Below are positions 27,127-63,120 of a DNA stretch of 64,000 nt, in pieces. This stretch comes from Sphingobacteriales bacterium (GTDB lineage Bacteria > Bacteroidota > Bacteroidia > UKL13-3): positions 34,436 through 98,435 of the forward strand of contig JAJTEN010000006.1 in NCBI GenBank assembly GCA_021298155.1, written 5' to 3'. A program made the position numbers and the translations under genes. The notes under the pieces are model-generated. The model made no database searches. It worked only from the letters and a program-made list of their open reading frames with translations, and was not told the origin of the DNA. Numbering within the stretch: the stretch's first letter is position 1; the number at the start of each line of letters is the position of its first letter.

Positions 27127-27135
27127 GAAGTGAAA

Positions 27136-27165
27136 AGTCGATAGACCATAGTCCATAGACCATAG
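27136..27165 (-). repeat. Heptad array, CTATGGA family, left arm
   Basis: Minus strand CTATGGT|CTATGGA|CTATGGT|CTATCGA|CT; inverted relative to 27208..27231. Confidence 0.9.
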
Positions 27166-42372: not shown

Positions 42373-43428
42373 ATGAATAGAAAAATATTAATAAGCGGAG
42401 GAGCTGGATTTATTGGATCGCATGTAGTGCGATTATTTGTGAATAAATACCCAAATTACCAGATTCATAACCTAGATAAATTAACCTATGCAGGTAATTT
42501 AAAAAACATAACCGACATTGAAAAAGCACCGAATTACCATTTTCACAAAATAGATTTAGTTGATGCTGCAGCTGTTAATCAATTATTTACTGCCCATCAA
42601 TTTGATGCTGTAATACATTTAGCTGCCGAAAGTCACGTAGACAGAAGTATCAGCAACCCTCTAGAGTTTGTGATGACCAATGTAGTTGGAACAGTAAATC
42701 TATTAAACGCTGCTAAAGATTGCTGGAAAGGAAATATGGAAGGAAAACGTTTTTACCATGTTTCTACAGATGAAGTGTATGGCAGTTTGCACGATGGTGG
42801 ATTCTTTTATGAAGACACCCCATACGATCCGCAATCACCTTATTCTGCTAGCAAAGCTAGTTCCGACCACTTTGTTAGGGCCTATCATAATACGTATAAA
42901 ATTCCGGTTGTAATAAGCAATTGTTCAAACAATTATGGTCCGAACCAATTTCCAGAAAAATTAATTCCATTGTTCATAAACAATATCAGAAATAACAAGC
43001 CACTGCCTGTTTATGGCAAAGGTGAAAACGTAAGAGACTGGTTATACGTTGTAGATCATGCCCGCGCTATTGATGATGTTTTTCATAAAGGGAAAAACGG
43101 TGAAACATACAATATTGGTGGGTTCAACGAGTGGACTAATATTGACTTGATTAAAGTTATTTGCAAAACTGCAGATAGACTATTAGGCAGAGCAGAAGGC
43201 GAATCAGAGAAATTGATTACTTATGTTACAGATAGGGCTGGACACGATTTGCGTTACGCAATTGATGCCAACAAAATAATGAAAGAATTAGGTTGGGAGC
43301 CAAGCTTACAATTTGAAGAAGGGATAGAAAAAACAATAAATTGGTACATAGAAAATCAGCTTTGGATGGATGAGGTAACGAGCGGAGACTATGCCAAATA
43401 TTACGATACGATGTATGCAGAAAGGTAG
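42373..43428 (+). CDS. rfbB: dTDP-glucose 4,6-dehydratase
   Basis: ILISGGAGFIGSHVVRLFV; HLAAESHVDRS; VSTDEVYGSL; PYSASKASSDHFVRAYHNTY. Confidence 0.95.
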   Translation: MNRKILISGGAGFIGSHVVRLFVNKYPNYQIHNLDKLTYAGNLKNITDIEKAPNYHFHKIDLVDAAAVNQLFTAHQFDAVIHLAAESHVDRSISNPLEFVMTNVVGTVNLLNAAKDCWKGNMEGKRFYHVSTDEVYGSLHDGGFFYEDTPYDPQSPYSASKASSDHFVRAYHNTYKIPVVISNCSNNYGPNQFPEKLIPLFINNIRNNKPLPVYGKGENVRDWLYVVDHARAIDDVFHKGKNGETYNIGGFNEWTNIDLIKVICKTADRLLGRAEGESEKLITYVTDRAGHDLRYAIDANKIMKELGWEPSLQFEEGIEKTINWYIENQLWMDEVTSGDYAKYYDTMYAER

Positions 43429-43458
43429 TTTTAAGTGTTAAGTTTTAAGTGTTAAGTG
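43428..43458 (-). repeat. Heptad array, TTAACAC family, left arm
   Basis: GTTTTAA|GTGTTAA|GTTTTAA|GTGTTAA|GTG beginning on the last base of the rfbB TAG. Confidence 0.9.
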
Positions 43459-43490
43459 ATTTTTAGCTAAATCTATTACATTGCAAATTG

Positions 43491-43514
43491 AAAAACTTAA
43501 CAACTAAAACAGTG
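43491..43514 (+). repeat. Heptad array, TTAACAC family, right arm
   Basis: AAAAACTTAACAACTAAAACAGTG, inverted complement of the left arm. Confidence 0.65.
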
Positions 43515-43545
43515 TAATAATCAAATATAAAAATTAGGACTCAAA

Positions 43546-43601
43546 CCATGGACTATCGTCTATGGACTATGGACCAAAGACTAACGACCAAATACCAAAA
43601 A
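43546..43601 (+). repeat. Heptad array, CTATGGA family, exactly eight units ending at the rfbA start codon
   Basis: CCATGGA|CTATCGT|CTATGGA|CTATGGA|CCAAAGA|CTAACGA|CCAAATA|CCAAAAA|ATG. Confidence 0.9.
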
Positions 43602-44462: not shown

Positions 44463-44538
44463 TTACGAATTATTCTTAACACTTAAAACTTAACACTTTA
44501 AACTTAAAACTTAACACTTTAAACTTAACACTCTAAAC
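44462..44538 (+). repeat. Heptad array, 11 uninterrupted units filling the rfbA/44540 intergenic gap
   Basis: ATTACGA|ATTATTC|TTAACAC|TTAAAAC|TTAACAC|TTTAAAC|TTAAAAC|TTAACAC|TTTAAAC|TTAACAC|TCTAAAC then C-ATG. Confidence 0.95.
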
Positions 44539-44539
44539 C

Positions 44540-45517
44540 ATGAACATACAACACGAAGCATTAAAACAATTTAACTATCAAATAAACTTTGCCATTAATA
44601 ACTATTCCAATCACGGATTGAGTTGTTCTCAGTTCAACAATGTGCTAATTGGCGGATTGGGAGGTAGCGGTATAGGTGGCAGATTGGTAAAAAATGTTTT
44701 CGCCAATGTGTTCCCATTACCTGTTGAAGTAGTTGCAGATTATACCTTACCTGCTTATGTTAATGAAAAAACATTGGTTATTCTGGGCTCATATAGCGGC
44801 AACACAGAAGAAACACTTACCATGTTTGAAGAAGTACAAAAACGAGGTAGCCATATTATTATTCTAACAAGTGGCGGTAAATTAGGTGAACTTGCCAAAG
44901 AAAATGATTTAAAAACCTATTTCATTGAACCAGGATTTCAACCTAGAATGGCATTAGGTTTTTCGCTCACATACCTCATTCAAATCTTTGGGGATTTGGT
45001 AGGAAGTTCAAAAAGTGATGAGCTTAAAACAGTAGCCAATTTATTTGAAGATTGCAGCGAATATCAGAAAGATGCAGAAGAAGTTTTTAACGCTATTCAA
45101 TCGAGATCAAAATCAAAATTTGTGGTACTCAGTGATGGTCCATTTGAGAGTGTTGCTACACGTTTTGCCCAACAGATTCAAGAGAATGCTAAACACGAAT
45201 GTTTTACGCATGTTGTTCCAGAACATAACCACAATGTGATAGAAAGTTATTACGGTACATTAGATACTGTTTTTTTCTTTTTAGATTCTAATGCAAATAG
45301 CAGAGTAAGTGCAAGATTCGATTTCTTAGTTGGTTTATTAGAAGTAGAGAACCACAAAATTATTGAAATGGGCGTTGAACAATTTACCATTGCCAGCGTT
45401 TACCAAACCATTCACAGATTAGATTGGATAAGCTTATTGGTTGCAGATGCAAAGAAGGTAGACTCCTTAAATGTTCCAAACATTGCCTCTTTGAAATCAT
45501 ATTTAGAGAACGCATAA
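44540..45517 (+). CDS. Bifunctional phosphoglucose/phosphomannose isomerase
   Basis: GLGGSGIGGRLVKNV; LGSYSGNTEETL; C-terminal PGI/PMI region. Confidence 0.88.
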   Translation: MNIQHEALKQFNYQINFAINNYSNHGLSCSQFNNVLIGGLGGSGIGGRLVKNVFANVFPLPVEVVADYTLPAYVNEKTLVILGSYSGNTEETLTMFEEVQKRGSHIIILTSGGKLGELAKENDLKTYFIEPGFQPRMALGFSLTYLIQIFGDLVGSSKSDELKTVANLFEDCSEYQKDAEEVFNAIQSRSKSKFVVLSDGPFESVATRFAQQIQENAKHECFTHVVPEHNHNVIESYYGTLDTVFFFLDSNANSRVSARFDFLVGLLEVENHKIIEMGVEQFTIASVYQTIHRLDWISLLVADAKKVDSLNVPNIASLKSYLENA

Positions 45518-56907: not shown

Positions 56908-57810
56908 ATGAAACATACGATTTATTTTATTTTTATTAGTTTGATTCTCACCTTTTCTTCGTGTAAAGAAGAGCCACCATATATTAATTTCACGCCAGAT
57001 AGAACCGTTGGCGATACCAGCTACATTAAACTACCAGCGCCAAGTGCGCAAGCAAGAGCTATATATATTGAGGAGTTTACTGGTGTGCAATGCCCAAATT
57101 GTCCGAAAGCACAAGCAGAAGCAAAATTAATTTCAGAAAATAATCCAAATCGGGTATTCATACTAACAATGCATCCTCTGGGTATTATGACTCCATTAAC
57201 ACGCCCATTTGACGCAGCAAAAGGAGATAAAAAAACCAGTAAATACGATTTTAGAACTGAGCCAGGTGCTAGAATTTTTGAAATGGTAGGTTTTGGTCAA
57301 ACTGGCTCATTGCCTATTGGCAATATAAATAGAAAATTATTTGGATCAGAAGTTCACCGCAATATTGATTACCAAAAATGGGCGGCATATGCTACTCAAG
57401 ATTTGGCTGAACCAACTCCTGTTAACATCGATTTAAAAGCAAAGAACACCGGCGATTCTGTGGAAGTAGAAATTACGCTTACATATACCAGTGCAGTGAG
57501 CGATTCACAATATGTAAGTATTGCCCTAGCAGAAAATGGTATTATAGATGTTCAAGAAAGTAAAGACGATCAGGGTGCCAGTATATATGAAGACAACTAT
57601 GTACATAATCATGTATTACGTACCATGCTTACCAGCTATTTTGGCGATTTTTTAAATGCGCGCTACGAACCGGGCAGGGTGTTTTACAAAAAATACCGCA
57701 TCCTTCGCAACAAGGCTTGGAACTCGGCTAATTTAGAAGTAGTGGCGTTTGTACATTTAAATACAACCAAGAAAAATGTGTTGCATGCAAAAGGCGCTAA
57801 GGTACAATAG
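56908..57810 (+). CDS. Omp28-related lipoprotein (thioredoxin-like)
   Basis: YIEEFTGVQCPNCPKAQAEAKLI; NYVHNHVLRTMLTS. Confidence 0.85.
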   Translation: MKHTIYFIFISLILTFSSCKEEPPYINFTPDRTVGDTSYIKLPAPSAQARAIYIEEFTGVQCPNCPKAQAEAKLISENNPNRVFILTMHPLGIMTPLTRPFDAAKGDKKTSKYDFRTEPGARIFEMVGFGQTGSLPIGNINRKLFGSEVHRNIDYQKWAAYATQDLAEPTPVNIDLKAKNTGDSVEVEITLTYTSAVSDSQYVSIALAENGIIDVQESKDDQGASIYEDNYVHNHVLRTMLTSYFGDFLNARYEPGRVFYKKYRILRNKAWNSANLEVVAFVHLNTTKKNVLHAKGAKVQ

Positions 57811-58408
57811 GAAACTGTTGGCTGTTAGCTTTTGGCTATTGGCTTTTGGTGCTTGTATTGAGAACACAGAAGACCCTGCCTATAGACAAGAATTAGCCAG
57901 TGAAAGAATGGCTATTAATGAACAGTTTTTTAACCCCAAAGAATCGCCTTTGGATAGCTTATTATTCTATACATTTAAAGGAGTAAAATTCTTTCCTATT
58001 CAAGAACAATATCGTGTGAAGGCAAAGCTTAGCATACTTAAAACCGATAGTGTGTTTGAGCTTCCTCACTCTCACAATGCCACCAAACCATACAAACAAT
58101 ATGCAGTGGCTAGCTTTGAATTACTAGGTAAAAATTATGAACTATTCGTATTAGAGCAAGTTGTAAAAAAACCTGGGGCCGAAAATTATTTATTATTGCC
58201 TTTTACAGACGCCACAAGTGGTTCAGAAACATACGGCGGTGGGCGATATATAGATTTAGATAAATCAGCAGGTACAGAAGTAACTATTGATTTTAACAAA
58301 GCATACAATCCTTACTGTTTATATAACAGTAAATATACTTGTCCTATTCCGCCCAAAGAAAACAGATTGCCAATACGCGTTGAAGCCGGCATGAAAGCAG
58401 AACTATAG
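57785..58408 (+). CDS. DUF1684-like lipoprotein
   Basis: MQKALRYNRKLLAVSFWLLAFGAC lipoprotein signal; ENYLLLPFTDATSGSETYGGGRYIDL; AYNPYCLYN. Confidence 0.8.
   Translation: MQKALRYNRKLLAVSFWLLAFGACIENTEDPAYRQELASERMAINEQFFNPKESPLDSLLFYTFKGVKFFPIQEQYRVKAKLSILKTDSVFELPHSHNATKPYKQYAVASFELLGKNYELFVLEQVVKKPGAENYLLLPFTDATSGSETYGGGRYIDLDKSAGTEVTIDFNKAYNPYCLYNSKYTCPIPPKENRLPIRVEAGMKAEL
57813..57854 (+). repeat. Heptad array, GGCTTTT family, inside the lipoprotein signal-peptide coding region
   Basis: AACTGTT|GGCTGTT|AGCTTTT|GGCTATT|GGCTTTT|GGTGCTT, starting 2 nt after the previous gene's TAG. Confidence 0.85.
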
Positions 58409-58463
58409 GTCGATAGTCCATGGTCTATAGTTTATGGTACAATGTTAATAGTTGATAGTTTTT
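58408..58463 (-). repeat. Heptad array, CTATGGA family, left arm, eight units
   Basis: GGTCGAT|AGTCCAT|GGTCTAT|AGTTTAT|GGTACAA|TGTTAAT|AGTTGAT|AGTTTTT starting on the last base of the TAG. Confidence 0.9.
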
Positions 58464-58560
58464 TGCAAGTTTAAAATAAAGAAATTGGTGTTCCTCTGGT
58501 AAAATAACCGCTTCAAATTACTGAATTTCTTAAATAAAAATAATTGGAACCATGGTTAAA

Positions 58561-58609
58561 ATGAACTATCAACTATGGTCTATGGACTATGGTCTATGGA
58601 CTATCGACT
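58561..58609 (+). repeat. Heptad array, CTATGGA family, right arm, seven units
   Basis: ATGAACT|ATCAACT|ATGGTCT|ATGGACT|ATGGTCT|ATGGACT|ATCGACT then CTA (stop of the minus gene). Confidence 0.95.
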
Positions 58610-59737
58610 CTACCTATACAAACTAAACAACATACGGGCATCGAAAATATAAGCTTTTTGCAGGTTTGAGTTTAGGTTCAGGCCAAACATTAAGTGTTTA
58701 TTTAGTTTGTAATTAATACCAAAACGGTGGTAAAATCTGCCCACAAACTCTTTGGGAATTTCATTGTGTAAATAATATCCCAATTGCTGCGAAAATATCA
58801 TACGGTTAAACAAAAATTCGTGCCCCGCTAAAAGACCAAGGAGTCTCACGTCAAAAGTATTGGCATAATAAATATTGTGACGCTTTAAGGCAAAATCCAT
58901 ACTCTCATCTTTAAAAGCCTCCACACCCAATGTCCATGCATGCAAATTGCTGGTTCTATAGGATGCATTGAGCATTAATCCATATGTCCAAAACCGCAGG
59001 TGTTTATAATCAGACAATGATTTATTAGAAATGGATACACCCATATCAACACGCCACTTTTGGGGGTAAGTTAACACCTTGCCAAAAGCCCTTTTTTGCT
59101 GAACCAATTGCCGCTCATATCCGATCCCTATATATGGGTAATTTAATCCGAAATTGGGGTTACGCGTATTTCCATTAGAAAAATGTCCGTAAGAAACACT
59201 AGCCAACACGGCTTGTTTGGCATTGATAGCCACATGCGCATGCAAACCCAAACCCAAATAACCATTAAACAACCAGCTATACGTATAATTAATGGGATTG
59301 CTCACAGCATTCCAAGGCTTACTTCCATAATTTAAGCCACCGGCAGCCCTTAGGCGCAAAGAAAACTTTGGCTTATCTATTAAAAATGGTTCTATAAAAT
59401 AACTTAGGTTTAAAACCTGACCCAAATCTGAATGAGAAAATTTTACATACTGCAAACTATATCCAGAATTATATTTAATACCGGCCCACTCAAGCGCTTT
59501 CTTATCTGTTCTGTACCTATTTAAATCTATTTGAAAACCAAATCCAGTAACACCTTTATAATGTTTTATTGCTTTATCATGTGCAAAAACAGAGGCATAA
59601 ATAGGCATACCAGATAAGGCGTAAGTAATCTCTTTTGTTTGCTTGGGTTCAGACAAATTTTTATTCAATTCTTGGGCAAGCAATAACCCAGGAAATAGTA
59701 TAATTACAATACAGAAAATAACTGTTTTAATTGGCAT
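58610..59737 (-). CDS. Acyloxyacyl hydrolase / PagL-like outer membrane protein
   Basis: GVTGFGFQIDLN...SYGHFSNGNTRNPNFGLNYPYIGIGYER resembles the PagL HxSN...N region. Confidence 0.75.
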   Translation of the reverse strand: MPIKTVIFCIVIILFPGLLLAQELNKNLSEPKQTKEITYALSGMPIYASVFAHDKAIKHYKGVTGFGFQIDLNRYRTDKKALEWAGIKYNSGYSLQYVKFSHSDLGQVLNLSYFIEPFLIDKPKFSLRLRAAGGLNYGSKPWNAVSNPINYTYSWLFNGYLGLGLHAHVAINAKQAVLASVSYGHFSNGNTRNPNFGLNYPYIGIGYERQLVQQKRAFGKVLTYPQKWRVDMGVSISNKSLSDYKHLRFWTYGLMLNASYRTSNLHAWTLGVEAFKDESMDFALKRHNIYYANTFDVRLLGLLAGHEFLFNRMIFSQQLGYYLHNEIPKEFVGRFYHRFGINYKLNKHLMFGLNLNSNLQKAYIFDARMLFSLYR

Positions 59738-62477: not shown

Positions 62478-62534
62478 ATTACGAATGAAAGGCAAATTCT
62501 ACCTTCCATTCGTAATCCGTAATTCGTAATTAAT
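62478..62534 (+). repeat. Heptad array, AATTCGT family, with 15-bp stem hairpin (62478-62492 / 62502-62516)
   Basis: ATTACGAATGAAAGG-caaattcta-CCTTCCATTCGTAAT; CATTCGT|AATCCGT|AATTCGT|AATTAAT over the stop at 62530-62532. Confidence 0.85.
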
Positions 62535-63120
62535 TAACAATTAAAGGAAACTGCACTTCAATATCAGAGCTTCCGGCATTAATACCATTGGTTTTTGGGT
62601 CTGAATTGGTATAGTGTTTTAACACACATTTTAAATTGCCCGCACCCATCACATCTGGTGTAGTAATTGTTAAACGTAGCCCTAATTCCATAGCTGGCGT
62701 TTGTGTATCAAAATCTAAAACCTGCAGCAATACACTTGGAATAGTACTGGTATAAATAAACCTATGTACATGACATGCAGTTCTAATAGATTCTGTTAAA
62801 TTTTTTGCGGGTGTAGCACTTTCATCCAATACTTCCGTAAAAACGTTGTATACCTTACCCTGCTTTAATAGAATAGAATCCACTGCAATCGCCGATCCTG
62901 GTCCACCCACCTGCTTCCAAACATACCTTACGGTATCTAAAGAGCCCTGCTCAATCATATTCAATCTAACAGTTGTAATTAATTCATTCTCGTGATCGTG
63001 GTTGTGATCATCATGGTCATGGTCATCGTGCTTAGAACAAGCCGTTGTGCCTAACATAAAAATACCTGCTAATAGCAATGTAAAGAAACTTAATGTGTTG
63101 TTTTTAATACTGTTTTTCAT
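62530..63120 (-). CDS. His/Asp-rich lipoprotein associated with a TonB receptor (putative metal-binding)
   Basis: Lipobox GTTACSKHDDHDHDDHNHDHENELITTVRLNM. Confidence 0.7.
   Translation of the reverse strand: MKNSIKNNTLSFFTLLLAGIFMLGTTACSKHDDHDHDDHNHDHENELITTVRLNMIEQGSLDTVRYVWKQVGGPGSAIAVDSILLKQGKVYNVFTEVLDESATPAKNLTESIRTACHVHRFIYTSTIPSVLLQVLDFDTQTPAMELGLRLTITTPDVMGAGNLKCVLKHYTNSDPKTNGINAGSSDIEVQFPLIVN

Follow-up and report, generated by a model that had tools for sequence, protein, structure and literature searches.

A dispersed heptad repeat read as the hydrophobic core of a predicted lipoprotein signal peptide

Results

A heptad array at the omp28/DUF1684 junction

In the 64,000-nt stretch of Sphingobacteriales DNA analysed here (the window), an array of seven-nucleotide units begins two nucleotides past the stop codon of an omp28-family gene and forms the hydrophobic region (h-region) of the DUF1684 lipoprotein encoded by the next, overlapping gene. 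We consider it probable that a dispersed repeat of consensus RGCYNTT arose or inserted after the omp28 stop and is translated there as this h-region. The omp28-family lipoprotein gene (ORF at 56908..57810, + strand; PF11551, 1.8e-25) ends with TAG at 57808-57810, followed by GA and then by the array (57813..57854, + strand), which we read as AACTGTT, GGCTGTT, AGCTTTT, GGCTATT, GGCTTTT and GGTGCTT. Units 2-5 match RGCYNTT exactly, where at least three adjacent exact units are called for; the sixth is degenerate, a poor match to the consensus, and is more readily understood as the Gly-Ala of the lipobox. The DUF1684 lipoprotein gene (ORF at 57776..58408, + strand) overlaps the end of omp28 by 35 nt, and its product belongs to PF07920 (3.9e-44), scoring 150.8 bits against a gathering cut-off of 25.

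In the DUF1684 frame the array translates as KLLAVSFWLLAFGAC, and the h-region with the end of the lipobox reads KLLAVSFWLLAFGA directly before C, the lipobox Cys (F-G-A-C; codon TGT at 57854..57856, + strand). The N-terminus has the form of a signal peptide, with a basic n-region, a hydrophobic h-region and a lipobox ending in Cys, and MCCMQKALRYNRK-LLAVSFWLLAFGA-C matches the lipoprotein pattern; mean hydropathy of the 14 residues preceding the Cys is 1.74. From this form and the conserved lipobox we infer that it acts as a predicted SPase II-type signal. An earlier note, made from the letters alone, had described the array at this place, its 21-bp unit with a seven-residue period (LLAVSFW / LLAFGAC), and its role as hydrophobic core of a DUF1684-like lipoprotein. 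The first two points agree with our reading of the sequence, and the third is supported by the ORF, Pfam and the lipoprotein pattern. The start that it gave, 57785, is indeed an in-frame ATG but the second of two; ATG 57776 is likelier to be the start, because more distant orthologues keep the first ATG and lack the second.

Periodicity beyond that of the peptide

Tandem Repeats Finder (TRF) reports an array of period 7/14 at 57818-57849. Over the 45-nt segment 57812-57856, 26 of 38 positions match at lag 7, while at the other lags between 2 and 21 there are at most 14 matches, the harmonic at 14 excepted. Such a pattern could also result from convergence at the protein level, in which selection for an h-region rich in Leu, Ala, Phe and Trp, together with the T-rich codons of an AT-rich genome, mimics heptads. 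The peptide alone does explain part of the periodicity: with the peptide fixed and synonymous codons chosen at random, the mean is 16.5 lag-7 matches and 26 is reached with P = 0.0025, which taken alone is only moderately significant. Shuffling of codons or of the peptide never reached 26 matches (100,000 trials each). The array is not due to chance, and the genome-wide family and the orthologues are stronger evidence of this than codon statistics.

The array belongs to a dispersed family with a preferred location

Triples of the GGCTNTT type, allowing up to two mismatches, gave 22 overlapping matches in the 2.5-Mb genome that carries the array, compared with none for the reversed pattern, and this genome holds about ten RGCYNTT arrays. 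Of the 19 genomes of the genus, 17 contain exact RGCYNTT triples, as do 26 of the 66 genomes of the family, where the reversed control gave six matches in total; a pattern search at the level of the order added no genomes beyond the family. At the DUF1684 locus itself, exact arrays are also present in G009, G012, G005 and G013, and a degenerate one in G017. The forty family genomes without any exact triple must also encode many signal peptides, so hydrophobic coding alone is insufficient to produce the pattern, which speaks against convergence. A related unit, GGCTTCT or GGCTGCT, forms long arrays in three genomes (G011, G015 and G004; L217, L218, L219 and L220) that read LLASGFW or LLAAGxW, and the heptad family is therefore wider than RGCYNTT.

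Apart from the DUF1684 locus, we surveyed the location of 105 arrays from twelve genus genomes by placing them against simple ORF calls made on the stretches around the listed arrays. Of these, 90 fall between genes. The closest gene boundary is a 3' end for 53 of the 90, at a median of 10 nt (27 lie within 10 nt), and 44 of the 53 have RGCYNTT on that gene's coding strand. Taking all 90 together, 70 have the RGCYNTT strand directed away from the closest gene (binomial P about 1e-7, bearing in mind that arrays common to related genomes are not independent and that ORFs were called crudely). The array in the signal peptide, 2 nt past the omp28 stop and on the same strand, follows the habit of the family, and the sole difference is that the next gene has already begun.

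These data bear on a second alternative, that the array grew by replication slippage inside the signal peptide, unconnected to the dispersed family. Bacterial heptamers in general have been suggested to arise by polymerase slippage (discussed in PMC4679880 and PMC4692102), and the locus shows no clear insertion length, as such growth would have it. However, the array shares its degenerate consensus with those at some ten further sites of the genome and sits at the family's usual position and orientation, which purely local growth would not predict; we regard this alternative as improbable. The spread of the dispersed family is, we infer, how the array originated. As to the event itself, insertion and local slippage are both compatible with the data; no empty site was found in a close relative.

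Arrays in opposite orientation are paired within 220 bp in ten cases (L142, L144, L150, L170, L207 and L216), like the paired arms of a hairpin or small mobile element. These inverted pairs, found at several sites, and the strong bias of the family towards 3' gene ends and one orientation would suit an array kept chiefly for a role in DNA or RNA at the 3' end of omp28 (as a terminator, binding site or mRNA stabiliser), its translation being only tolerated. Against this, 11 of 17 genus orthologues manage without an array at the DUF1684 locus and the RGCYNTT family has no known function. We think such a primary role unlikely, though less so than purely local growth, and it is compatible with a dispersed repeat translated as an h-region, the two not being mutually exclusive.

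Orthologues carry marks of both the repeat and the reading frame

The DUF1684 gene is present in 17 of the 19 genus genomes, and six of these orthologues have arrays at the same spot (our genome, G017, G009, G012, G005 and G013). The four close array-bearing orthologues are at 81-86%, and that of G013 at 67%. The other 11 have different h-regions and no array: lag-7 matches number 23-28 in the six array-bearing orthologues vs 7-14 in the five array-less ones measured, and inspection by eye reveals none in the other six. The comparison proposed in the earlier note thus came out in its favour, in that a similar signal peptide goes with 7-bp periodicity and different signal sequences with its absence; the case named there as contrary, a conserved signal peptide lacking periodicity in the DNA, did not occur among the orthologues compared.

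Among the five close species protein length is identical, and amino acid differences are found at 9 of the 15 array positions and at 39 of 183 in the mature part. At the DNA level, variable sites fall on 10 of 15 R, Y or N heptad positions vs 4 of 20 fixed ones (Fisher P = 0.013, from small numbers in related species). At R, units 1, 2, 3 and 5 carry A or G and unit 4 only G; in unit 4 this position lies in the TGG (Trp) codon at 57832..57834 (+ strand), the sole place at which an A would create an in-frame TAG. Position-wise variation and the invariant G of unit 4 therefore indicate that the sequence bears marks of the repeat consensus as well as of the reading frame. Trp is found in the h-region of 6/6 array-bearing orthologues vs 1/24 others, and array-less orthologues attain similar hydropathy without a heptad pattern. 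That variation tracks heptad positions, that Trp is otherwise rare in these h-regions and that comparable hydropathy arises without the pattern all argue against convergence, which, with the forty triple-free genomes, we consider the least likely of the explanations, and very improbable.

In a tree of the mature domain the five close species with arrays form one group (100/99). Depending on the place of G013, this tree and one with Omp28 added are both compatible with either one or two gains of the array. In our reading, the register of the G013 array differs with respect to the stop as well as to the Cys, and the array encodes the same cyclic peptide.

The predicted signal is older than the array

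Array-less genus orthologues (e.g. G010, G011, G004 and G001) also start within omp28 and carry an N-terminal hydrophobic stretch ending in Cys, and the lipoprotein pattern is matched by 27 of 30 orthologues. Because orthologues without the array have both features, the lipoprotein signal and the start overlap are ancestral and older than the array. The repeat filled or replaced an existing h-region and was not the origin of export. The distance from the omp28 stop to the Cys codon is 43 nt both in our genome and in array-less G010, with no difference of an insertion's length. The ancestral signal qualifies the proposal in the earlier note of an intergenic repeat co-opted as an export signal with its start codon inside the upstream gene. 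The dispersed, mostly intergenic family, the array's usual position and its translation as an h-region uphold the co-option, but array-less orthologues already have a signal; the start is indeed inside omp28, but that overlap, which array-less orthologues share, is not part of the repeat event.

We postulate that an RGCYNTT repeat arose or inserted past the omp28 stop, in the place typical of the family, the first nucleotides behind a stop codon, with the upstream gene's orientation. Since the DUF1684 lipoprotein gene starts within omp28, the same stretch is its h-region and the array is translated. As 7 and 3 have no common factor, three units make seven codons, and the three forward frames yield one cyclic hydrophobic peptide. 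A forward array can be tolerated in any register because an h-region requires hydrophobicity rather than a set sequence. Such tolerance is conditional: the unit in the TRG frame has to keep its G (Trp and not TAG), and the last unit has drifted into the lipobox.

Translated arrays elsewhere are antisense and hydrophilic

Fifteen of the 105 surveyed arrays lie inside ORFs, all of them antisense with a hydrophilic reading (KAKGQ/KANSQ), and several of the fifteen simply precede a likelier start codon. At five antisense loci the array is within or directly against a protein recognised by Pfam: valyl-tRNA synthetase (ValRS; L007, L154, L189 and L208, in four surveyed genomes), methionyl-tRNA synthetase (MetRS; L166, between the anticodon-binding and tRNA-binding domains), a DegT aminotransferase (L156 and L214, in two genomes), Ppx/GppA (L155 and L174, at the N-terminus, in two genomes) and an SBBP protein (L210). 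The ValRS loop is variable across the genus, with adjacent RGCYNTT units in 7 of 16 species compared. The forward reading of GGCTTTT is LLAFGFW, of mean hydropathy +1.96, and the reverse is KSQKPKA, at -2.26. Both strands of heptad arrays are about equally likely to contain stop codons, so stops cannot account for array orientation.

Sense translation of an array was confirmed only at the DUF1684 site. We searched six genomes with the forward peptide, taking stop-free open frames of at least 100 aa, and two sites had such frames, the DUF1684 locus and G000:C3:30922. The latter was rejected, as its array falls between two genes. Longer frames in G011, G015 and G004 were likewise discarded as coding sequence, since they look like non-coding repeat stretches. 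In this genus, heptad arrays might be a recurrent source of protein segments sorted by polarity, the forward strand supplying hydrophobic export segments and the reverse strand hydrophilic loops or linkers (ValRS, MetRS, DegT, Ppx/GppA and SBBP), independent of frame through the period of 7; we put this forward tentatively, as a generalization that may well not hold.

Discussion

Heptamer repeats, occasionally translated, are already known, and the array described here is a known kind of element in a new variant of use: the open-licence literature searched contained no description of a repeat-encoded signal peptide and no report combining DUF1684 with a lipoprotein. TAACTGA direct repeats are found in Beggiatoaceae, Cyanobacteria and some Bacteroidetes (MacGregor 2015, PMC4679880). 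Like RGCYNTT they are dispersed 7-nt tandem repeats and mostly intergenic; they sometimes overlap upstream stop codons, and a minority is translated in the stop-free orientation. They differ in unit, in lying mostly just before start codons, in having two to six exact copies, and in that their forward orientation, unlike that of RGCYNTT, has stops in all frames. Our array does not belong to them, its unit being neither TAACTGA nor the complement. The translated cases concern mostly short or hypothetical proteins, and the available text of that paper describes none as a signal-peptide core (PMC4679880).

In Xanthomonas and Nostoc, the heptameric repeats with units GGGAATC and GGGGA(C/T)T (Rehm 2015, PMC4692102) are likewise mostly intergenic heptads and nearer the upstream gene, at an average of 28 nt vs 160 nt to the downstream gene; their unit differs in being G-rich and quadruplex-forming, and the accessible part of the report mentions no signal peptide case (PMC4692102). 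Rickettsia palindromic elements are also dispersed repeats translated in frame in unrelated genes, but they are palindromic, about 150 bp long and have their own conserved peptide (reviewed in PMC10969869), whereas RGCYNTT arrays are short tandem heptads whose peptide is frame-independent. A scan of 57700-58700, around the omp28/DUF1684 junction, revealed no inverted partner for the 42-nt array, which sets it apart from the Rickettsia type.

The DUF1684 locus offers a multi-species case in which a dispersed non-coding DNA repeat forms part of a conserved protein, at a place where hydrophobicity mainly matters. It suggests a simple rule for other repeat-rich genomes: when the period of a repeat is not divisible by 3, each strand encodes a single cyclic peptide whatever the frame, and repeat orientation therefore decides which proteins can absorb the repeat. 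Simple repeats can thus become working protein parts, and this may help explain the fast turnover of signal peptides between close relatives.

The window also holds other heptad arrays. Directly after the DUF1684 stop begins a 48-nt inverted repeat of a second heptad family (TATGGWC type; 58409-58608), whose arms are 75% complementary and separated by 104 nt. Further 7-bp arrays are present at 27128-27165, 43423-43592, 44468-44545 and 62508-62545, with units TATGGWC, AGTGTTA/TTAACAC and ATTCGTA; most are at or within a few nucleotides of a stop codon, and that at 44468-44545 occupies the whole space up to the next ATG.
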